Origin: an uncultured Clostridia bacterium
GTDB lineage: Bacteria > Bacillota > Clostridia > Christensenellales > Borkfalkiaceae
DNA length: 64,000 nucleotides
Assembly: GCA_947629095.1 (NCBI GenBank)
Contig: CANRCK010000014.1
Span: forward strand, 41,705 to 105,704
Direction of reading: 5' to 3'
Below, piece after piece: positions 3,068 to 33,442 of this stretch (positions within the stretch are counted from its first letter, which is position 1; each line of letters begins with the position of its first letter). A model generated the notes under the pieces. It saw only the letters and a list, made by a program, of their open reading frames with translations, searched no databases and was not told the DNA's origin. Made by a program: the position numbers and the translations under genes.

Positions 3068-4044
3068 ACGAAGATATTAAAAACCTGATTCTGCAAAAGA
3101 TAGAGAGCTATAACTCTATTATAATTTCCCGCCATATCCGCCCCGACGGCGACGCAGTAGGATCCACTATGGGGCTTACAAAAATTTTGCGCGATACCTA
3201 TCCCGAAAAGCATATTTATCTTGTAAACGAAGATTTTTCGGACTACCTCTCATTCTGCGGCGGCGAAGATACCGTTCCCGACGGAATTTATGACGGCGCG
3301 CTGCAAATTGTGATAGATACGGGCACAAAAAAAAGAATTTCCAACATCAAGTTTGTTAAAGCAAAGGAAATTATAAAAATCGACCACCATATAGAGGCTG
3401 ACCCCTACGGCGATATCAATTGGGTTGAGGACTTCCGCTCGTCGGCTTGCGAAATGATTGCGGATTTTTATTTAACGCATAAAAAACGCCTTAAAATTTC
3501 ACCCGAGGCGGCTACCTATATCTACCTCGGTATGGTAACGGACAGCGGCAGATTCCAATTTGAAGGCGTTACGGGCGAAACAATGCGCCTTGCCGGCGCA
3601 ATGCTCGACTGCGGCGTAGACCTTGAAAACCTCTATGCCAACCTCTACTCCGAGGACCCCGACTCTTTCAAATTCAAATCCTATGTTTACGACAATATAC
3701 GCATTACCGAGCACGGCGTTGCATATATCTATTTGGATAGAGCCACGCAGGAGCGCTTTAACCTCTCCTTTGAAGCGGCAAGCAGCGTTGTGAGCGAGCT
3801 TTCGGGAATACGCGGCAGTCTCATTTGGGTTGCGTTTATTTATAATTCCAAAAAAGAAAATATTCGCGTAAGGCTCCGCTCCCGCTTTTTGGGCATAAAC
3901 GACCTTGCAATAAAATACCACGGAGGCGGGCACAATATGGCGGCGGGCGCCACCGCTTACTCCGAGGAAGAAATGCGGGCGCTTATACAAGACGCCGATA
4001 AATTACTCGGCGAATACAAATCCACACACGAGGGTTGGCTATGA
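3064..4044 (+). CDS. DHH/DHHA1 family phosphoesterase (NrnA-like), second tandem copy
   Basis: HIRPDGDAVGS, IDHH, YHGGGHNMAAGA motifs; ATGA overlap with the previous gene. Confidence 0.9.
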   Translation: MNEDIKNLILQKIESYNSIIISRHIRPDGDAVGSTMGLTKILRDTYPEKHIYLVNEDFSDYLSFCGGEDTVPDGIYDGALQIVIDTGTKKRISNIKFVKAKEIIKIDHHIEADPYGDINWVEDFRSSACEMIADFYLTHKKRLKISPEAATYIYLGMVTDSGRFQFEGVTGETMRLAGAMLDCGVDLENLYANLYSEDPDSFKFKSYVYDNIRITEHGVAYIYLDRATQERFNLSFEAASSVVSELSGIRGSLIWVAFIYNSKKENIRVRLRSRFLGINDLAIKYHGGGHNMAAGATAYSEEEMRALIQDADKLLGEYKSTHEGWL

Positions 4045-23695: not shown

Positions 23696-24360
23696 AATAA
23701 ATTCTCCTCTTTAACTATTTTTACAATGCGGGAAGTTCCGAGCCTGTCCGCGCCGAGCGAAATGAACTTTTCGGCGTCGGCAAGGGAAGAAATGCCGCCC
23801 GCAGCCTTAATTTTTATGTTCAACCCGAACTTGTCGATTTCATTTTTAAAAATTTCTACATCGTGGAAGGTTGCGCCCGCCTTGGAAAAGCCCGTGGAAG
23901 TTTTAATATAATCGGCGCCGCTTTCGGCAACAAGGTGAGTTGCCATAATTTTTTCAAGGTCTGTAAGAAGGCAGGTTTCAACAATTACTTTTAAAATTTT
24001 TCCTTCGCACAGCTTTCTCACCTCTTTTATCTCTTTGAGAACTTCTTCGTACTTCCTCTGCTTCATATAACCGATATTGATAACCATATCTATTTCATCG
24101 GCGCCGTCCGTAACCGCCGACATAGTTTCATACATTTTTGTGGTTGTGGAGCAGTATCCGTTGGGGAAGCCTATAACCGTGCATACGGCAATTTTATCGC
24201 CGGCATATTTTTTTGCCTCGGCGACGTAGCAAGGCGGAATACAAACCGACGCCGTTGAATATTTGATGCCGTCGTCTATCAATGCGCGGATATCATCCCA
24301 CGTAGCCGTCACCGCAAGCTGCGTATGGTCGCATTTGCCTAAAATTTCACGAATGTCCAT
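23692..24360 (-). CDS. deoC: Deoxyribose-phosphate aldolase
   Basis: KCDHTQLAVTATWDDIRALIDD; ADEIDMVINIGYMK; KVIVETCLLTD; GADYIKTSTGF; IKAAGGI. Confidence 0.97.
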   Translation of the reverse strand: MDIREILGKCDHTQLAVTATWDDIRALIDDGIKYSTASVCIPPCYVAEAKKYAGDKIAVCTVIGFPNGYCSTTTKMYETMSAVTDGADEIDMVINIGYMKQRKYEEVLKEIKEVRKLCEGKILKVIVETCLLTDLEKIMATHLVAESGADYIKTSTGFSKAGATFHDVEIFKNEIDKFGLNIKIKAAGGISSLADAEKFISLGADRLGTSRIVKIVKEENLL

Positions 24361-24444
24361 AACAAAACCTCTACATGCAAATAATAACTATATATATTAA
24401 TTGAATATAAACTAATTTAAATATAACAAATATCGGCACAGAAT

Positions 24445-24473
24445 ATTGTAACCCAAAAAAGTTCAGTTGTCAA
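24445..24473 (-). promoter_or_regulatory. Sigma-70-type promoter for the deoC-led operon
   Basis: Minus strand TTGACA (24473-24468), 17-nt spacer, TACAAT (24450-24445), about 80 nt upstream of deoC ATG. Confidence 0.8.
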
Positions 24474-24537
24474 CGGTAATCAAAAAAGAAACGCCTTATT
24501 GAATTTCGTTTAACTTATGATAAAATCCGACAAATAT

Positions 24538-24588
24538 TTGCACAAAATGCGCATAAAAGTGTTCGCTTTTATGCGCATTTTGTGCAAA
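24538..24588. repeat. Long perfect inverted repeat (22-bp arms, 6-nt loop) upstream of the deo promoter
   Basis: TTGCACAAAATGCGCATAAAAG-TGTTCG-CTTTTATGCGCATTTTGTGCAA. Confidence 0.9.
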
Positions 24589-24661
24589 ACCACGGCTGGA
24601 ATATAATCTCCCCTCCACGGATCAAGCTCGGTTGATATACATTTTAACGTAAAAACCAAAT

Positions 24662-25075
24662 TTACAGATCTATCGTTTCGGTCTTAAAATCGCAATAATA
24701 TTCTGCTTTGATCCCCTTGAATTTCAACACGCAGTAGTCGGGATCGGTCACGCCCTGTTTATAGAACATCTTGTCGCCAAACCGCCAAATTTCATCTTTT
24801 GTAGCCTGGTCGGTGCATATTTGCATTTCACCTATTATCGAAACGCCCTGATACTTGAATTTCCCGCGTTTATAAAAATAGACGCAGGCTTTATCGTTTG
24901 CCGAATACTGCTTTATCTTGTTGGACGAGGTGTTTGTTGTGAAGTAAATCTCGTTGCCGTCTATCTTACGAGGGGCGAGCATTGCTCTTATAACGGGATA
25001 GCCCTGCCCGTTGACAGATGCAATAAACGCCGTCTTTTGTTCGGATATAAATTGAAATAGTTGTGATTTATCCAT
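24662..25075 (-). CDS. Pyridoxamine 5'-phosphate oxidase-like FMN-binding family protein
   Basis: AFIASVNGQGYPVIRAMLAPRKIDGNEIYFTTNTSSNKIKQ. Confidence 0.75.
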   Translation of the reverse strand: MDKSQLFQFISEQKTAFIASVNGQGYPVIRAMLAPRKIDGNEIYFTTNTSSNKIKQYSANDKACVYFYKRGKFKYQGVSIIGEMQICTDQATKDEIWRFGDKMFYKQGVTDPDYCVLKFKGIKAEYYCDFKTETIDL

Positions 25076-25100
25076 ACGCTACTCTCCGCTAAATTGAAAT

Positions 25101-25475
25101 TTATAAATCAATACCCATATTGAATCTGCATGGTAAAGCAAGAAAGAATATAGCCGAAACAGCAAATATAGTATGGCTCGCTATCTGTATTTTTCGATTG
25201 TCTTTGAAAATGCAGGTGACCGCCGTGAGTGCGACAGACGCCATCATTACCGCAAGAGCAATGTATAGGAGAAATTGTAAATTCTCTCTGCTAAGCTTGT
25301 CGTAAATGCTGTAATAGTAGTCGAACTGCCCAATCCCGCCCTCGGCATTGGGAATATGGGCGACATCGTGGTCAATCTTTATAAAGCACAATGCTCCCAT
25401 AAGGACATTCAAGCACACTTTTAGTGCTTCCAAAATGAATAAAAATGCTTTTTTCATGAGGCTTTTTCTTCGCAA
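25101..25475 (-). CDS. Small predicted membrane protein, unknown function
   Basis: ORF with several hydrophobic segments; likely start at 25457 (MKKAFLFILEAL...). Confidence 0.5.
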   Translation of the reverse strand: MRRKSLMKKAFLFILEALKVCLNVLMGALCFIKIDHDVAHIPNAEGGIGQFDYYYSIYDKLSRENLQFLLYIALAVMMASVALTAVTCIFKDNRKIQIASHTIFAVSAIFFLALPCRFNMGIDL

Positions 25476-25600
25476 AATTCTTGTTTATCGCTATAATTAT
25501 ACCATAAAAATAGAAAAAACGCAAGTAGCGGGCGGCGCACATAAATAAAAAGTGAATCCGAGCCGCTCGACTGAGTAGCCCGGATATATTTCACTGGTGA
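25474..25600 (-). repeat. Copy 1 of a diverged direct repeat (terminator hairpin + promoter region)
   Basis: CTTGTTTATCGCTATAATTATACCATAAAAA...CAAGTAGC...AAAAAGTGAATCCGAGCC... matches 26873-27000. Confidence 0.75.
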
Positions 25601-25755
25601 CGATCTGAAAACAAGGTTGAACTTTTTGTGTGGACTAAATAGCCCTGCAGGGCGATTTAATATAGGTGCGTACTACGCAGCATACGAGCGCTTTTCAATC
25701 TTTACTTCTTTCATAAAAAATCCCTCCGCTAAATTAACGTTTTGTTTGAGTTCTT

Positions 25756-26163
25756 TTAAGTATTAAAAATATCGTTTTCATCCGAGTTGCCCGAATATTG
25801 ATTTTTATTCTTTTTCGATAAGACGATTTTTTTGATGGTATGTATATACCACAGTATTCCCGTTATGGGGGAGACGAGCAGACTCAATACCAGGATTCCG
25901 CCGAAGCCCACAATTACGCCGATGCGTGCTCCATCCCTAAAAGCCTGCTCGGTGGATTTGCCTTCGAAATATTTTATTGCCAATTGCGCGTCAAAAAGCA
26001 TGGAAGGAATGATAAAAAACGCCCAGGACACCAAAATTACCATTGACGTAACTCTATATACGTCGGGGACAAAAGTCGGGTCGAAAAAGCATAGTAAAAC
26101 AGCTAATCCCGCAAGCGCAATGCAAATTGTCAAAACAATCAATAATTGATTTATTTTGTTCAT
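25756..26163 (-). CDS. Small predicted membrane protein, unknown function
   Basis: Hydrophobic segments LLIVLTICIALAGLAVLLCFF, VTSMVILVSWAFFIIPSML, VIVGFGGILVLSLLV. Confidence 0.55.
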   Translation of the reverse strand: MNKINQLLIVLTICIALAGLAVLLCFFDPTFVPDVYRVTSMVILVSWAFFIIPSMLFDAQLAIKYFEGKSTEQAFRDGARIGVIVGFGGILVLSLLVSPITGILWYIHTIKKIVLSKKNKNQYSGNSDENDIFNT

Positions 26164-26186
26164 CGAACTCTCCGTTACATTGAAAT

Positions 26187-26504
26187 TTACCGCTTCTTCA
26201 TTTTCGGCATTGGCAGGTCGTCATACATTGCCTCAAATAATCCTGTCAAATAAACCTTATCATCCACATTGTCTACATTGAGCATTTTCTTTACACCCTC
26301 GTACGGCAAGGAATACTCCGCCTGCGGCAAATAGGATAGAGCGGATTTCACGGGTTTTACGAGCAATCTGTCGTCGTAGATACCGCCGACAAGTTTGCCG
26401 CGATAGTAAATCAAAAATTCACCCATCATAGGCTTGTAGGTTATGTCCTCTAATTCGGATAGTTGTTCCAAAATGAAATTCAAATATTCCTTGCTTGACG
26501 GCAT
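26187..26504 (-). CDS. TfoX N-terminal domain protein
   Basis: LSELEDITYKPMMGEFLIYYRGKLVGGIYDDRLLVKP...LPYEGVKKML. Confidence 0.75.
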   Translation of the reverse strand: MPSSKEYLNFILEQLSELEDITYKPMMGEFLIYYRGKLVGGIYDDRLLVKPVKSALSYLPQAEYSLPYEGVKKMLNVDNVDDKVYLTGLFEAMYDDLPMPKMKKR

Positions 26505-26533
26505 AATTCCTCCGCTAATTGAAACTTATCGCT

Positions 26534-26854
26534 TTAATTGTCGATATCGTTTTGCTTTTTTATATCTTGATTTTCATCGTCATTACTGTTTTCTATCAGC
26601 TTTTTGTACTTGCGAGCTTCGATATAAGAAATTATCATCAGCGTAATAAGCACCAAGAAAATTGCAAGCATAATAAAAACAAATATTTTACCGTAAAGAT
26701 AAGGAGCCTTGACTTCAAAGTCGGTAAATTCACTCAAAATGGTCCGCAGAGACGTAATTACACCTAAAATCCCGGTTATAATTGCCGTAATTGTACAAAC
26801 CTTAGCCCATTTCTTAAAGCCCTTAAAGTTTTCATTAAGATCGTTATTTTTCAT
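26534..26854 (-). CDS. Small predicted membrane protein, unknown function
   Basis: ORF track 26534..26965; likely start MKNNDLNENFKG at 26854 because AGCGGAG sits just upstream; two hydrophobic segments. Confidence 0.5.
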   Translation of the reverse strand: MKNNDLNENFKGFKKWAKVCTITAIITGILGVITSLRTILSEFTDFEVKAPYLYGKIFVFIMLAIFLVLITLMIISYIEARKYKKLIENSNDDENQDIKKQNDIDN

Positions 26855-26872
26855 TTTTGCTATTTCTCCGCT

Positions 26873-27000
26873 AAATCCCTGTTTATCGCTACAATTATAC
26901 CATAAAAACAGGGCAAACACAAGTAGCAAGCGACAATAGATAAAAAGTAAATCCGAACCATTCACTCGCTATGAGTATTCGGCACGGATTACACTGACTT
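26873..27000 (-). repeat. Copy 2 of the diverged direct repeat
   Basis: CCTGTTTATCGCTACAATTATACCATAAAAA...CAAGTAGC...AAAAAGTAAATCCGAACC... matches 25474-25600. Confidence 0.75.
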
Positions 27001-27084
27001 GGTGCACTCGACAGGAGTTGAACCTGCATGGGGTGAACCACAAGATCCTTAGTCTTGCGCGTCTGCCAATTCCGCCACGAGTGC
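27000..27084 (-). tRNA. tRNA-Leu (anticodon UAA)
   Basis: Cloverleaf GCACTCG...CAAGA-CTAAGGA-TCTTG...CGAGTGC, genomic CCA, long variable arm. Confidence 0.96.
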
Positions 27085-27156
27085 TTGAAAACATTTAAGA
27101 TTTTATAATATTTTCAAACCGTTGTCAAGCTAAAACACCACTATTTAAAAAGTTTT

Positions 27157-27750
27157 TCAAGTATTTAAATTTTTGATTTTTACTACCGTTTCAAGCGTTT
27201 TTTTAGTCAAATCATCATAATTTCCGTTATTATGTATGACATAGTACTCTGAAAAATCAAAATTTTCATAATCAAATTGACTTTTAACGCGCGATTCAAC
27301 TTGTTCAATATGCGTATGGTCCCTTTGAATAACCGAGCTTATTCTTTTATCACGGTCACGGAGAATTACTATTACGCCGTTAAATAAATTTTGAAAGCCG
27401 TTCTCAAACAGCAAAGGAACTTCCAAAAATGAAAGTTTGTGGGCGCGCATTTTTAAAAACGCCTCTTCCATTATTGCCGGATGCGTAATGTCGTTCAATT
27501 TTTTTAATTGTTTGCCGTCGTTAAAAACTTTTTGTGAAAGCACGACCCTGTTTATTGTTCCGTTTAAAACGATATCAGAACCAAACGCCTCCTCCAATTT
27601 CTTTACGAAATCGGGCGACGTGAGCAATTCCCCGTAAATTTCGTCACAGGAATACACGGGATAATTCAAACTTTTTATTATTTGGCAAACCGTCGACTTG
27701 CCGCTGCCGATTCCTCCGGTTATTGCAATTTTTATATTATTTTGCGTCAT
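27157..27750 (-). CDS. coaE: Dephospho-CoA kinase
   Basis: IAITGGIGSGKSTVCQIIKSLNYPVYSCDEI. Confidence 0.95.
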   Translation of the reverse strand: MTQNNIKIAITGGIGSGKSTVCQIIKSLNYPVYSCDEIYGELLTSPDFVKKLEEAFGSDIVLNGTINRVVLSQKVFNDGKQLKKLNDITHPAIMEEAFLKMRAHKLSFLEVPLLFENGFQNLFNGVIVILRDRDKRISSVIQRDHTHIEQVESRVKSQFDYENFDFSEYYVIHNNGNYDDLTKKTLETVVKIKNLNT

Positions 27751-30292
27751 ACCAATTTTTACCGGCGTGAAGCTCTACGGTAAGTGGAACATTTAGCTTC
27801 ACGGCATTTTCCATCTCATATTTCAATATTTCGGAAGCCTCCACCGCTTCGTTTTCGGGAGCTTCCAGAACCAGCTCGTCGTGCACCTGCAGAATGAGCT
27901 TTGACTTAAGATTGCGATTTTCCAAAGTTTTGCAGACATTTATCATTGCTATTTTAATTATGTCGGCGCTTGATCCCTGCAAGGGCATATTCATTGCGGC
28001 GCGTTCGCCAAATTGTCTGAGAGTATAATTTGATGATTTAAGCTCGGGAATGACGCGTCTCCTGCCCGTAAGTGTTGAAACATAACCGTGCTCATAGGCA
28101 AACTCAACGTTTTTGTTCATATATTCTTTTACGGCGCTGTAAGTTTCAAAATATTTTTGGATATATTCCTTTGCTCTGCCTACGGGAATATTCAGATTTT
28201 TTGCAAGCCCGAATTCGCTGATGCCGTAGATTATCCCGAAATTTACAGCTTTTGCCTCCCTGCGCATTGTCGGCGTGACTTCGCTCAAATCAACGCCGAA
28301 AACCTGAGACGCGGTAACGGCGTGCACGTCCGTACCGGCATTATAAGCCTCGATAAGCTCTTTGCAACCCGAAAAATGCGCCAAAAGCCGCAGCTCTATC
28401 TGCGAATAGTCTGCATCGATGAACACACAGCCTTCGTGAGGCACAAAAATTTTGCGTAGCTCCCTGCCTTCTTCCTCACGTATGGGAATATTCTGGAGAT
28501 TGGGATTTGAACTTGAAAGTCTGCCCGTAGCGGTAAGAGTTTGGTGATAAGTTGTATGAACTACGCCTCTTTTATCTATCAGGGGAAGCAATCCGTCGCA
28601 GTATGTGGAGCGAAGTTTTTGGTAAAGCCTGTATTTTAATACGTCGGCTACTACCGGCGCCTTGTCCACAAGTTTTTCCAATACCTCCGCACTTGTTGAA
28701 AATTTGCCTGTTTTTTTCTTTTTGACCTCGGTCAAACCGAGCTTTTCGTACAAAACCTCGGCAAGCTTTGAAGGTGAATTTATGTTGAATTCGCAGTCGC
28801 AAGCTTTATAGATTTTAAATCGAAGGTCTTCTGCCTGACCGTAAAACTTTTTGGAAAGCTCGTTCAACCCATCAACGCTTACTCTTACGCCCGTCTTTTC
28901 CATATTATATAGAACTTTTACAAGCGGCTTTTCAACTTCTCTGTAAAGCGAAAAAACGTTCTGGCTGCTCATCTCTTCAACATAGCGCTTGAACAGCTCG
29001 TTCAGGGCAAATGCGCGGAAGTTGTAATCGTACAGATAATAATTTAAAAGTCCCTTTAAGTCAAAGTTTGCCGCGCTGCTGTCGCACAAATATTTTGCCA
29101 CGGAAACGTCGTTGTAATCACACTTCGCCTCTATTTCAAACTCTTCGAGAATATGCATTGCAGCTTTGAAATCGTATGTTAAAATTATGTTTTCGGGCAC
29201 TTCAAAAAGCGCTTTGAGTATTGCGTTATAATCGTTGTAACTTACGGCTACGTCCTGTAAATTTTCCTGCATCTTTATGGAAATTTCTCTGCCGCCGACG
29301 TAAATTTCCATTGCGCCCGGCTCTAAAATTACCGAAATCTCTCTGTTTTCAGCCAAAATTTGCGCAATTTCGAAATATGAACCGCACTCTGTTTTTGCGG
29401 GATAATTAACCGTATTCTGCTCGGATTCCTCCCCGGATTGCTCTTCGAAAATATCCAAACTCAAAAGACTTTTAAACTCAAACTCCGCAAACATACTTTT
29501 AACGTCGCCGTTGAATTTTTTGGGAGCTATACAATCTTCAAGCCGTAAATCTATTTCACAGTTCCTGTCTATAGTGGCGAGCTTATATGAAAGATATGCA
29601 ATTTCGCGGTTAGCCTCGAATTTCTGCTTAACGCTGCCTTTTAAATTTTCAAGATTTGCATAAACGCCGTCAAGAGAACCGTAGGTCTTGAGCAACTCAA
29701 TCGCAGTTTTTTCACCGATTCCGGGAATGCCCGGGATGTTATCCGATTTATCCCCCATAAAAGATTTTAAATCGATTACCTGCTTCGGTTCAATCCCTAT
29801 TTCGGCCTTAAAATTCTCCATAGAAAGGTGCAAAATATCGCTCACGCCTTTTTTTGTATAGCATACGTCGGTATTTTCATCCACAAGCTGGTAGCTGTCC
29901 CTGTCGCCCGTGTAGATATAGCTGCGCACATTGAACTTTTTTGAGAGTGTGCCCAAAATATCGTCCGCCTCTATCCCCTCTAGCCCGCAAGTGGCAATTT
30001 TCATTGCTGAAAGCAAATTTTTGAGCGGTTCAAGTTGAACGACAAGATCTTCCGGCATAGGTTTGCGAGTTGCCTTGTAGCCGTCGTACATCTTATGTCT
30101 GAAAGTTGGCGCTTTCATGTCAAACGCCACGACGATATATTCGGGATTAACGTCGCCGAGAATTTTAAAAAGCAGCTTAATAAATCCAAAAACCGCATTT
30201 GTGGGCATCCCGCTCTTGGTGGTAAACACCGGAGTTGCATAGTAAGCCCTGTTTAAAAGGCTGTTGCCGTCTATCAAAACCATCTTTTCCAT
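27737..30292 (-). CDS. polA: DNA polymerase I (5'-3' exonuclease + polymerase; 3'-5' exonuclease domain apparently degenerate)
   Basis: VLIDGNSLLNRAYYA; GDKSDNIPGIPGIGEKTA; DADYSQIELRLLAHFSG; RREAKAVNFGIIYG; LQVHDELVLEAP. Confidence 0.97.
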   Translation of the reverse strand: MEKMVLIDGNSLLNRAYYATPVFTTKSGMPTNAVFGFIKLLFKILGDVNPEYIVVAFDMKAPTFRHKMYDGYKATRKPMPEDLVVQLEPLKNLLSAMKIATCGLEGIEADDILGTLSKKFNVRSYIYTGDRDSYQLVDENTDVCYTKKGVSDILHLSMENFKAEIGIEPKQVIDLKSFMGDKSDNIPGIPGIGEKTAIELLKTYGSLDGVYANLENLKGSVKQKFEANREIAYLSYKLATIDRNCEIDLRLEDCIAPKKFNGDVKSMFAEFEFKSLLSLDIFEEQSGEESEQNTVNYPAKTECGSYFEIAQILAENREISVILEPGAMEIYVGGREISIKMQENLQDVAVSYNDYNAILKALFEVPENIILTYDFKAAMHILEEFEIEAKCDYNDVSVAKYLCDSSAANFDLKGLLNYYLYDYNFRAFALNELFKRYVEEMSSQNVFSLYREVEKPLVKVLYNMEKTGVRVSVDGLNELSKKFYGQAEDLRFKIYKACDCEFNINSPSKLAEVLYEKLGLTEVKKKKTGKFSTSAEVLEKLVDKAPVVADVLKYRLYQKLRSTYCDGLLPLIDKRGVVHTTYHQTLTATGRLSSSNPNLQNIPIREEEGRELRKIFVPHEGCVFIDADYSQIELRLLAHFSGCKELIEAYNAGTDVHAVTASQVFGVDLSEVTPTMRREAKAVNFGIIYGISEFGLAKNLNIPVGRAKEYIQKYFETYSAVKEYMNKNVEFAYEHGYVSTLTGRRRVIPELKSSNYTLRQFGERAAMNMPLQGSSADIIKIAMINVCKTLENRNLKSKLILQVHDELVLEAPENEAVEASEILKYEMENAVKLNVPLTVELHAGKNWYDAK

Positions 30293-30388
30293 AAGTACAA
30301 TTTTACCACTTTACTTAATTAAAATCAACGATAAAATCAAAAACGCTTGATTTTTGTTGTTTTATATTATATAATTAAAAAGCTGAAT

Positions 30389-30475
30389 GCCGCTGTGGTG
30401 GAATTGGCAGACGCGCTGGACTCAAAATCCAGTGGTAGCGATACCGTGTCGGTTCGACCCCGACCAGCGGCACCA
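30389..30475 (+). tRNA. tRNA-Leu (anticodon CAA)
   Basis: GCCGCTG...CTGGA-CTCAAAA-TCCAG...CAGCGGCACCA. Confidence 0.96.
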
Positions 30476-30478
30476 AAA

Positions 30479-30508
30479 AGAGACAACCTTTTCAGGTTGT
30501 CTCTTTTG
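30479..30508 (+). terminator. Rho-independent terminator after tRNA-Leu
   Basis: AGAGACAACCT-TTTC-AGGTTGTCTCTTTT. Confidence 0.85.
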
Positions 30509-30541
30509 CCTTATTGACGCAGTTGAATGCCTCATTGAAAT

Positions 30542-30979
30542 TTATTTTTCAATGTTTTTATAACTAATGGTAATATGTCCTATCCCGAAAATCAACGAAC
30601 AAATCATAAGAGTGATTGACAGCACCATAATACCGCTAAATGCAAAAATAACGGTGGGTGTTATGGAGAGCCAAAGCATTTTTGCCTTACCGCGCCCTTT
30701 TCGATAGATAATCCACCCCAATAGATATAGCGCAAGCAACGCTCCATTGACAGATAGATAAACAATGAGGGCGGAAGCGAACCAAAAATCAAAATAGGTG
30801 TACGGGATATTAAAAATCATAAATAACATACAGCCATAGCGTCCGATTTGCTCCACAACAAGGATAACCTTATTATTAAATCGATTTTCAAACGCTCCTT
30901 TGTCTAAAACTGCGCTGATGATATTCGGTATCAAGATGATTGCAACCGCAATCAACCCGTAATAATTAAACCAACCCAT
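30542..30979 (-). CDS. Predicted membrane protein, unknown function
   Basis: 145-aa ORF with multiple hydrophobic helices. Confidence 0.55.
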   Translation of the reverse strand: MGWFNYYGLIAVAIILIPNIISAVLDKGAFENRFNNKVILVVEQIGRYGCMLFMIFNIPYTYFDFWFASALIVYLSVNGALLALYLLGWIIYRKGRGKAKMLWLSITPTVIFAFSGIMVLSITLMICSLIFGIGHITISYKNIEK

Positions 30980-31012
30980 AACTCGCCAAATTGATATTTA
31001 TCTTACGTTGTC

Positions 31013-31231
31013 TTATTTTTTCGATTGCGAATTGATATGTGATACAAGAATAAAAGCAAGCAAGCCCCAAATTACCATTGTTAGCAACAAAATAACCGCA
31101 ACCGAAAAATCTGCGCTTATAACTCCTGCAAAAATACAAATTGCAACTATACAACACGCCAATGCGCATAAGCTTGAAATAAGAACGCAGATTGTCATTG
31201 CTATAAGAATAATAAAAGCTTTCTTGTCCAT
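31013..31231 (-). CDS. Small predicted membrane protein, unknown function
   Basis: 72-aa ORF with two hydrophobic helices. Confidence 0.4.
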   Translation of the reverse strand: MDKKAFIILIAMTICVLISSLCALACCIVAICIFAGVISADFSVAVILLLTMVIWGLLAFILVSHINSQSKK

Positions 31232-31348
31232 AATATTCTCCCACTCACGTTTATTGTATTAAGATTATAGCACAACAATGCAAACAAAATCAAGACCGAG
31301 TGTTAAGACTTAATTTACAAACCGGCATTTATGTGTTAAACTGAAAAT

Positions 31349-33442
31349 ATGAAAAAGTTTGTAAATGTGCGACTACATGTTATTGCCGCCCTCTCCGTTT
31401 GTTTGGGAATCGGGCTGGGTATTTTGTTGTATTTTTACAATCTCAATTCAGCTTGGTCATTGCTTGCAATCTTGCCTGCGGCAATAACTATATTAATTTG
31501 TGCGGTGGCTAAACGAAATATCTTTAAGCCTTTGGCGTTTGTGATTTTTCCAATCCTTTTATTGGTCGGCGGCGCTTTCAATTCCTATTACGCCCTTTCA
31601 CGGTTTGATTACTGTGAAGCTTCCGAAACAAAGGCATACTCAATCCACGGCACCGTAAAAGAAAAGGGCAAAACCGCATCGGGCGAATACATAATCATTT
31701 CAAAAATCACTTTGAACGGCAAAAAAATCAATGGCAATGCATACGTATATCTTTCACCGACATACGGTGAACTCTGCTATGAGGGATATACCGTTGATTT
31801 TACTGCTGAACTTGAAAAAATTGCGCCCTTTCAATACGGCTCCATTTCAAGCTACGCCGAACAGAACGTTAAATATCGCACGGCGGTATACGCCGGACTT
31901 CATTCAACTTACGGATTTTCGCTTTTCGGAAGCGCCCGCGCGGCAATCAGGAACACGCTGTTTTCAAATCTGGATGAAAATACGGCAGCCATTTCATACG
32001 CCATGCTTACGGGTAATACCGAACAGGTTGACCAAACTGCGCTCGACAGCTTCCGCTACGGAGGCGTAGCGCATATCTTTGCAGTTTCGGGGTTGCACAT
32101 AGGCATAATTTTCGGTACAATTTCATTTATACTCAAAAAATTGCGGATCAACATCTATGCCGCTGCAATTATAAGCCTTGCAACTGTGTTCCTATATTCG
32201 GCTCTGTGCGGGTTTACTCTGTCGTCCCTGCGTGCAGCCATAATGTGCACCATTGCCAAAATTGCAAACTTGGTTTACAAACAGTATGACGGTTTGAATT
32301 CGCTCGGCGTTGCGGTCGTAATTATTTTGAGTATAACCCCGCTCAGCCTGACATCGGTTGGGTTCCAACTTTCGGTATGCGCTATAGGCGGGATTTATTG
32401 CTTTTCAAAACTGATTGAAAAGCTGCTTGGAAAAATAAAACTTCCTTCACCCATATGTTCGGCAATAGGCGCTTCGCTGGGCGCCCAACTCGGCACGTTG
32501 CCCATAATGCTTGCAAATTTCGGATACATAAGCGGCGCGGGGCTACTTTTGAATATAGTTGTTTTGCCAATCATTTCGGTTATATTCGTAATAATATTTT
32601 TATCCGTAGCCGCGTGCACCGTTTTTGGTGCGCTTGCCCCTTTAATAATTCCCTACGCAGCCCTGCCGCTTCAGTTTATGGTGTCAATGTTTATAGGCGC
32701 AGGGTTTGAAAATTCGCTTATAAGCGGGTTCGGCGCAGGAATTTTTGTGCCCGTATATTTTGTGTTTATACTTGCTTTAAGCGATAAGCTGAACTTTAAA
32801 TCGCTTACAAGGCTCGTTCTGCTTGCCTGCGGCGTTGCCGTGCTTACGGGCTACGTATTGGTCCGCTATAATACTCCGTTTTCGGGTTATAGACTTATAG
32901 TTTCGGCGTACGGCAATGGCGGCGAGGTGGTTATTAAGTCGAACTCCGGAACTGTTTTGATAGTTACCGACAAAGTAAATCCGTCGAGGCTGCAAACAAT
33001 GCTCGGCAGAAACTATATTACGGATATAGATGCGCTGATTATTCTCGGCGACGAAAATCTTGACGTTTATCCCTCTTTGGATATAGATTGCACTGCCGTC
33101 TATGTCTGCAACACCTATCCGCAGATTCAGCCGTACGGCGATATCACGGTTATTTATGCCGACGATGTTTCCGTTTGCGGGATTGATTTTTCGCTTAAAG
33201 ACAACAACACTCTGCTTGCCACAGTCGGAGGAGTTGAAGTCGGCGTCTGTGCCGAAGAAAATTATTCCTTAAAGAGCTGCGATATAATGATATCCGACGA
33301 ACCTGCCGCTATCGACTTTATTACGCAAGTTTTCTTTACAAACCGTGCGGGAACACTTAACGCCTTCGATTGCGGCGACATAACGTTTAAAATCGGTGAC
33401 GGAAAATTCAGCCTCTTAAATAAAATACCGCCCGAAAGATAA
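31349..33442 (+). CDS. comEC: ComEC/Rec2 family DNA-uptake channel protein with degenerate C-terminal metallo-beta-lactamase-like domain
   Basis: YAMLTGNTEQVDQTALDSFRYGGVAHIFAVSGLHIGIIFG; GFTLSSLRAAIM; QLSVCAIGGI. Confidence 0.9.
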   Translation: MKKFVNVRLHVIAALSVCLGIGLGILLYFYNLNSAWSLLAILPAAITILICAVAKRNIFKPLAFVIFPILLLVGGAFNSYYALSRFDYCEASETKAYSIHGTVKEKGKTASGEYIIISKITLNGKKINGNAYVYLSPTYGELCYEGYTVDFTAELEKIAPFQYGSISSYAEQNVKYRTAVYAGLHSTYGFSLFGSARAAIRNTLFSNLDENTAAISYAMLTGNTEQVDQTALDSFRYGGVAHIFAVSGLHIGIIFGTISFILKKLRINIYAAAIISLATVFLYSALCGFTLSSLRAAIMCTIAKIANLVYKQYDGLNSLGVAVVIILSITPLSLTSVGFQLSVCAIGGIYCFSKLIEKLLGKIKLPSPICSAIGASLGAQLGTLPIMLANFGYISGAGLLLNIVVLPIISVIFVIIFLSVAACTVFGALAPLIIPYAALPLQFMVSMFIGAGFENSLISGFGAGIFVPVYFVFILALSDKLNFKSLTRLVLLACGVAVLTGYVLVRYNTPFSGYRLIVSAYGNGGEVVIKSNSGTVLIVTDKVNPSRLQTMLGRNYITDIDALIILGDENLDVYPSLDIDCTAVYVCNTYPQIQPYGDITVIYADDVSVCGIDFSLKDNNTLLATVGGVEVGVCAEENYSLKSCDIMISDEPAAIDFITQVFFTNRAGTLNAFDCGDITFKIGDGKFSLLNKIPPER

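Follow-up and report, generated by a model that had tools for sequence, protein, structure and literature searches.

Junctions between small genes as probable attachment sites of a mobile gene-cassette system in gut Clostridia

In the window, that is, the whole 64,000-nucleotide stretch of DNA analysed here, several small genes on the minus strand are separated by a short repeated sequence, and comparison with relatives makes it highly probable that these junctions are the attachment sites of a mobile gene-cassette system in gut Clostridia. The site recurs in three forms with a set order, the homology of neighbouring genes switches at it, one neighbour is replaced by another across it, and close copies of the genes behind it are found in other genera and families. 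The window belongs to a 1.49 Mb genome in 14 contigs, and its genus (g1) was searched as 93 genomes, the window genome included; almost all data are MAGs of different species, and movement is read from between-species comparison. The first-pass annotation had described a series of stop-to-RBS junctions and suggested either cassette-like assembly or a shared post-transcriptional site; the junction sequences it quoted are all present in the window, no more than 1-2 bases from the positions given.

The three forms are called J, P and T. J (TAAATTTCAATTTA-GCGGAG) separates genes. P (GATAAACAGTAATTTA-GCGGAG, with the written-out consensus GATAAACAG(T/G)AATTTA-GCGGAG) usually lies behind a promoter at the start of an array, ~7 nt after a TATAAT box. 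T is TAAATTTCAATTTA without GCGGAG, which is replaced by an unrelated flank; it stands at the array end, often followed by a terminator hairpin. Among the 93 same-genus genomes, the J pattern TAAATTTCAATTTAGCGGAG with up to three mismatches gave 128 matches in 54 genomes, against 10 for the reversed pattern, and the P leader pattern GATAAACAGGAATTTAGCGGAG gave 124 matches in 44 genomes, against 0 for its reversed control. Arrays have the layout P-gene-(J-gene)n-T and run in a single direction: neighbouring sites share their orientation in 101 of 104 cases and are opposed in 3, with a median spacing of 516 bp, and their order is mostly P-J, J-J, J-T or P-T. Conservation covers ~20-28 bp of the site, and the stop-to-start distance in the window is 23-29 nt. 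P is conserved over an 11-6-11 span (TGTACGATAAA - CAGTAA - TTTAGCGGAGA) with a weak left arm, which is the layout of a tyrosine-recombinase core site, while T can extend into the palindrome GATAAATT-TC-AATTTATC. Some P-type sites (L084, L096, L204, L249) directly follow the stop codon of a gene and lack a promoter box; the association of the P form with promoters is thus not absolute.

Although no gene follows them, the T copies retain the left half and AATTTA, so that translation of a downstream gene does not account for the conservation of the site. This bears on an RNA-level explanation, in which the junction would be a translational element, or a binding site for an sRNA or protein, around the RBS of co-regulated genes and would have no role in recombination. 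The right half does contain a Shine-Dalgarno-like GGAG and precedes starts, and P is located where a transcript would begin; yet the gene-less array-final copies retain TAAATTTCAATTTA and drop GCGGAG, the homology of neighbouring genes breaks inside the site, and the motif is not spread over host operons. An Rfam scan of 24000-31500 gave two tRNAs and otherwise only sub-threshold microRNA models, with no family at the junctions, and a known RNA family at these positions was rejected on this ground. The shared regulatory site around the RBS is accordingly disfavoured, and we regard it as the least probable of the explanations weighed here.

A search next to gene starts over ~435 kb of the same genome showed that the motif is not a universal RBS context and is rare in that position: ATTTAGCGGAG, with one mismatch allowed, lies at most 28 nt upstream of 5 of 466 ORFs of at least 100 aa, and three of these five ORFs lie in the window array. 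Counted in the window alone, the 16-mer does not exceed chance (3 matches when three mismatches are allowed, against 1.43 expected in shuffles), so relatives were needed to judge the motif. In other members of the genus, the same junction stands before further genes unrelated to one another, among them kinase-like ATPase, cytidine-deaminase-like, CAAX-protease-like, lipoprotein-like and TfoX_N genes.

Read as a cassette array, the main series of the window lies wholly on the minus strand and is anchored by a tRNA-Leu (AAG; ARAGORN) at 27000-27084, which is conserved behind coaE in relatives. The platform region between this tRNA and the first P (26888-26999) contains a hairpin and a promoter (TATAAT 26899-26894), and a like region lies behind the same tRNA in genomes G014 and G102. 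P site 1, GATAAACAGGGATTTAGCGGAG at 26866-26887, has one mismatch to the genus-wide P pattern; its end, GATTTAGCGGAG, had been counted among the stop-to-RBS junctions, but this copy (26887-26866) is a leader behind the promoter. Cassette 1 (26534-26854, from the ATG at 26854) encodes a 106-aa membrane protein, weakly DUF3169-like (Pfam), with 92% nucleotide identity to a copy in G014, on another contig. A diverged J site 1 (GATAAGTTTCAATTAGCGGAG, 26510-26530) precedes cassette 2 (26187-26504), a 105-aa TfoX_N protein (Pfam 2.1e-07) whose family elsewhere stands behind many different upstream genes. J site 2 (TAAATTTCAATGTAACGGAG, 26170-26189, from the J pattern search) precedes cassette 3 (25756-26163), a 135-aa membrane protein (MNKINQLL..., family cluster 3) whose family lies behind other genes in L075, L077 and L147. 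J site 3 (..AACGTTAATTTAGCGGAG, 25724-25743) is diverged in its left half and is followed by a 13-codon remnant, MKEVKIEKRSYAA.

A second leader copy, missed in the first reading, is the diverged P site 2 (GATAAACAAGAATTTTGCGAAG, 25489-25468), which has its own promoter region; over ~100 bp its surroundings show an 80% match to the first leader region, and platform region 26888-26999 matches the region upstream of it to the same degree over ~100 bp. It is followed by cassette 4 (25101-25457; 118-aa membrane protein, MKKAFLF...), by J site 4 (25084-25103), an exact copy of the consensus TAAATTTCAATTTAGCGGAG whose TAA is the stop codon of cassette 4, and by cassette 5 (24662-25075), a 137-aa PPOX-like flavin-binding protein (Pfam PNPOx_N 1.2e-16; cluster 2) with 90% nucleotide identity to a copy in family f19 (family labels such as f1 and f19 are anonymous handles). 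A degenerate T site (TAAATTTGGTTTTTACG, 24648-24664), a weak match assigned by position, ends the array. Just downstream lies a 52-bp near-perfect palindrome (GCACAAAATGCGCATAAAAG..., 24537-24588), and elsewhere in the window a 65-bp direct repeat with 80% identity occupies 2534-2598 and 3490-3554.

The side matches noted at 30542 and 30979 are part of the same system, within a stretch of the minus strand (31269-30529) that reads as a degenerate two-gene array. It starts with TATAAT (31269-31264) and the P-like AATAAACGTGAGTGGGAG, together 31238-31269 and a weak match assigned by position, and continues with a 72-aa membrane protein without Pfam match (31013-31231), a J site (GATAAATATCAATTTGGCGAG, 30982-31002) and a 145-aa membrane protein (MGWFNYYG..., 30542-30979, cluster 11), whose family is also found behind J in Pumilibacter muris (L150), P. 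intestinalis (L180) and L231. Its T site (TAAATTTCAATGAGGC, 30529-30544, with TAAATTTCAAT at 30544-30534) is followed by a terminator hairpin. Several sites of the window arrays are diverged, and their activity may have been lost. Outside the window, the same genome has a further P site near the end of contig C1 (G000:C1:300355-300376, L080) with a small gene behind it. Both ends of contig G000:C12 (L021, L022) lie in tRNA-downstream hairpin repeats that match the platform hairpin of the window, and one of them reads AATTTAGCGAAT; the assembly may have broken there at further arrays.

Cassette-like assembly draws its support from what stands on either side of the site: one gene family appears behind many different genes, one upstream gene is followed by different next genes, and the homology switches inside the site. 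The 151 ORFs behind P or J form 91 families, 63 of which are singletons, and most of the pool is made up of small membrane proteins, acetyltransferases and unknowns; its matches to defence models include an AbiEi-like gene. The TfoX_N family has 10 members, 2 behind promoters and 8 behind J, where the upstream sequences differ. Behind a GNAT gene ending in ...VERGILREDYFKN(V/I)K stands a lipoprotein-like gene in L074, TfoX_N in L077 and PPOX in L225 and L394, and in L219 the same gene end is followed by the array end. Among same-family cassette pairs, 96 of 101 have unrelated sequence in the upstream 40 bp (28% identity versus 31% at random), and in those 96 pairs the 12 nt from AATTTA on and the next 16 nt are conserved. 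Conversely, in 75 pairs that share the upstream flank and differ in the downstream gene, the left half is 96% identical and identity drops to the random level right of AATTTA. The ends of BLAST alignments also cluster within the site. Since the pairwise switches and the BLAST ends fall at one place, the exchange point lies inside or adjoining AATTTA. To its left, CAGT is retained at P, on the platforms, and TTTC at the cassettes, so exchange apparently occurs at one core end only.

Ordinary homologous or illegitimate recombination at a repeated short sequence, requiring no dedicated enzyme, would profit from a site present many times per genome, and the ~100 bp platform copies, two of them in the window, could recombine homologously. 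However, the switches take place within ~6 bp of shared sequence in a site of 20-28 bp, a stretch too short for efficient RecA-dependent exchange, and random exchange would not maintain the polarity of CAGT platforms and TTTC cassettes; we consider this explanation very unlikely. The combination of modules of one gene each, a constant point of exchange, direct orientation and a platform site with a promoter implies site-specific recombination of an integron-like kind.

The same chromosomal locus can be compared between relatives at the anchor coaE-tRNA-Leu(AAG), which is common to many of them. In the window this locus holds P, the DUF3169-like gene, TfoX_N, a membrane protein, the remnant, the second P, a further membrane protein and lastly PPOX. 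In G014, P is followed by a 168-aa membrane protein that differs from those of the window, by the 135-aa membrane protein that the two share, and by a lipoprotein-like protein of 322 aa. The locus of G102 consists of P, a protein of 50 aa and T. In G013, J sites precede TfoX_N and the 135-aa protein, and G074, G064, G073 and others have no site at this locus. With different cassettes or none in the orthologous loci, stable synteny was rejected, and shuffling among relatives, for which the first-pass annotation had advised a search, is borne out.

For four of the five window cassettes, the best copy in another genome shows 90-92% DNA identity; for the fifth (25101-25457) the best match reaches only 74%, and most listed cassette copies are 80-92% identical. 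The polA and coaE genes of the window genome are 65-79% identical to those of same-genus relatives, and cassettes with 88-92% DNA identity are shared between genomes whose polA and coaE are 65-79% identical. Family f19, which belongs to the same order, has close cassette copies too (L390, L394). Across the order, P sites were detected in 64 of 396 sampled genomes and 20 of 142 genera, with 1 for the control, and the P-bearing genomes belong mostly to families f1, f3, f6, f19 and f32. Exact J matches in GTDB contigs include P. muris and P. intestinalis, both of them cultured and both carrying P too; a few further exact J matches, to MAGs that are unrelated (L149, L168), seem due to chance or misbinning. 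An origin of the window array from a plasmid or phage was rejected, since there was no plasmid match and the phage comparison gave two weak and partial matches (72-73% identity over 290 and 137 bases, part of one gene). IMG/VR has no copy of the P leader and a single match to J, probably by chance.

One type of platform, represented by about a dozen loci, has TTCCCATAGGGAATTTAATAAAACGC at its start, ~200 bp upstream of P, and AATTCCCTATGGGAA at its end, beyond T. The flanks of this type form stems of 7-16 bp in five of six complete cases, compared with a control mean of 6.3 bp, and several of these stems are clearly the two halves of a host terminator hairpin, which in this small sample is suggestive of terminator targeting. 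This type has short inverted terminal repeats (TTCCCATAGGGAA) in L125, L134, L135, L237, L260 and related loci; a platform with such repeats inside host terminator hairpins resembles a small transposable element. Other platforms lie behind tRNA genes, as in the window. The resemblance would also suit transposition of single genes by a transposase acting in trans (e.g. HUH or single-strand) that recognises AATTTA...TAAATT or the T palindrome, as would the 6-bp inverted repeats at the two cassette ends and the palindromic form that T can take. Cassettes, however, are confined to P/J/T sites, where they stand in tandem and in a single orientation, and half-site replacement is the one common outcome, which is typical of site-specific recombination; transposition is, in our judgement, very unlikely. 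Retro-transposition of transcripts was rejected because cassettes behind J lack the transcript 5' end GATAAACAGT.

For site-specific recombination, we hypothesize that a cassette corresponds to AATTTA-GCGGAG-ORF-TAAATTTC, a promoterless gene that would bring its own RBS at the 5' end and a half site at its stop codon or a few bases beyond it. An array starts at platform P (a promoter, then GATAAACAGT joined to AATTTA) and ends at T (TAAATTTC joined to AATTTA, plus the platform flank), and exchange among P, T and J within the shared AATTTA would add, remove or swap single genes. The array would be transcribed from the predicted platform promoter, with transcripts expected to start at GATAAACAG and run through it. 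Cassettes may pass through circular intermediates with the predicted circle site TAAATTTC-AATTTAGCGGAG, and an empty platform is predicted to read GATAAACAGTAATTTATC...; no empty platform was found among the loci searched. The enzyme would be a site-specific recombinase acting in trans, probably of the tyrosine type, because the core is an inverted repeat (11-6-11 in P, a palindrome in T).

In 855 kb of sequence covering 95 array loci, no recombinase family recurs near the arrays. The family called class A is XerC/D-like, with proteins of ~300 aa; of the 93 genomes 19 encode it, and 17 of these 19 are P-positive (Fisher p = 3e-5, a statistic that ignores phylogeny). It reaches 112.7 and 97.8 bits against the NCBIfam integron-integrase model, whose cut-off is 265. 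In G095 a class-A gene ends ~350 bp before a P array (L258, G095:C87) with GyrI-like and PPOX cassettes and an array end. Its co-occurrence with P and this position first suggested class A as the cassette integrase. It was nevertheless kept only as a candidate, since P/J sites are lacking around it in most other genomes, it is missing from many carriers, including the two Pumilibacter isolates, and it has inverted sites of its own. In L320 (G034:C21, 31-3526) and L325 (G077:C165, 9996-13381), a class-A gene lies beside two convergent genes that are flanked by inverted AATAACTAANAATTATT plus RBS and adjoin a promoter region; these modules are probably two-gene DNA inversion switches. In about half of the contigs with class A, the contig stops directly upstream of the recombinase gene, which looks like an assembly break at this site. 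For class B the co-occurrence is weak, with 22 of 37 lying in genomes that are P-positive (p = 0.045), and the serine recombinases near a few arrays are only distant kin of each other.

Complete integrons are reported to be extremely rare in Firmicutes, the host group here (PMC9024848). If the proposal is true, it describes a route that moves single genes between gut species and a common promoter able to express whatever lands behind it. The system reaches several families of the order, including the two cultured Pumilibacter species; its short, sequence-defined site makes cassettes findable by pattern, and the cultured carriers make the mechanism testable. The open-licence literature on integrons, dif modules, cassette systems, terminator-targeting elements and Pumilibacter yielded no account of a P/J/T system, an absence that is not proof.

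Integrons and CALINs (IntI, attI, attC) share with the arrays described here tandem, co-directional, promoterless cassettes of mostly one ORF, an array-start site by a promoter (predicted here), varied accessory genes such as GNATs and unknowns, a constant exchange point, and the gain, loss and reordering of cassettes via the site, seen here by between-species comparison; like CALINs, the present arrays have no integrase nearby. The site itself differs: it is ~20-28 bp long, conserved in sequence and includes the RBS of the next gene, whereas attC sites are folded, variable in sequence and conserved in structure (PMC9024848; PMC8618304). Moreover, each genome has several small platforms, and no IntI-type integrase lies beside the arrays (95 array loci, 855 kb). 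An attC site usually measures ~55 bp or more, for which a stop-to-start distance of 23-29 nt and a conserved span of ~20-28 bp leave no room; with neither attC nor an adjacent integrase, the system is not a member of the integrons.

Acinetobacter dif (pdif) modules, served by XerC/XerD, are likewise genes split by short two-armed sites with a 6-bp centre (28-bp layout in P, whose left arm is weak), with an enzyme probably acting in trans. Those modules are bounded by inversely oriented sites, move as whole modules and need identical or nearly identical spacers (PMC13141974), whereas the sites here are direct repeats (101 same versus 3 opposite) around single promoterless ORFs, and the P and J spacers are unlike (CAGTAA versus TTTCAA). 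Tyrosine-recombinase inversion switches also unite a recombination core and a translation start in one short site, and many of the same genomes encode a Xer-like recombinase family; the P/J/T arrays, in contrast, are unidirectional and modular, and the inverted modules of class A use another site (AATAACTAANAATTATT) and look like two-gene switches. Given these likenesses and differences, it is conceivable, though we would sooner doubt than assert it, that, in addition to integrons and dif modules, the arrays represent a third independently evolved system of cassette capture that is widespread across an order of gut Clostridia, in which a recombinase in trans would serve a double-stranded, RBS-supplying site of 20-28 bp on many small platforms per genome, some of these platforms being terminator-targeting mobile elements.
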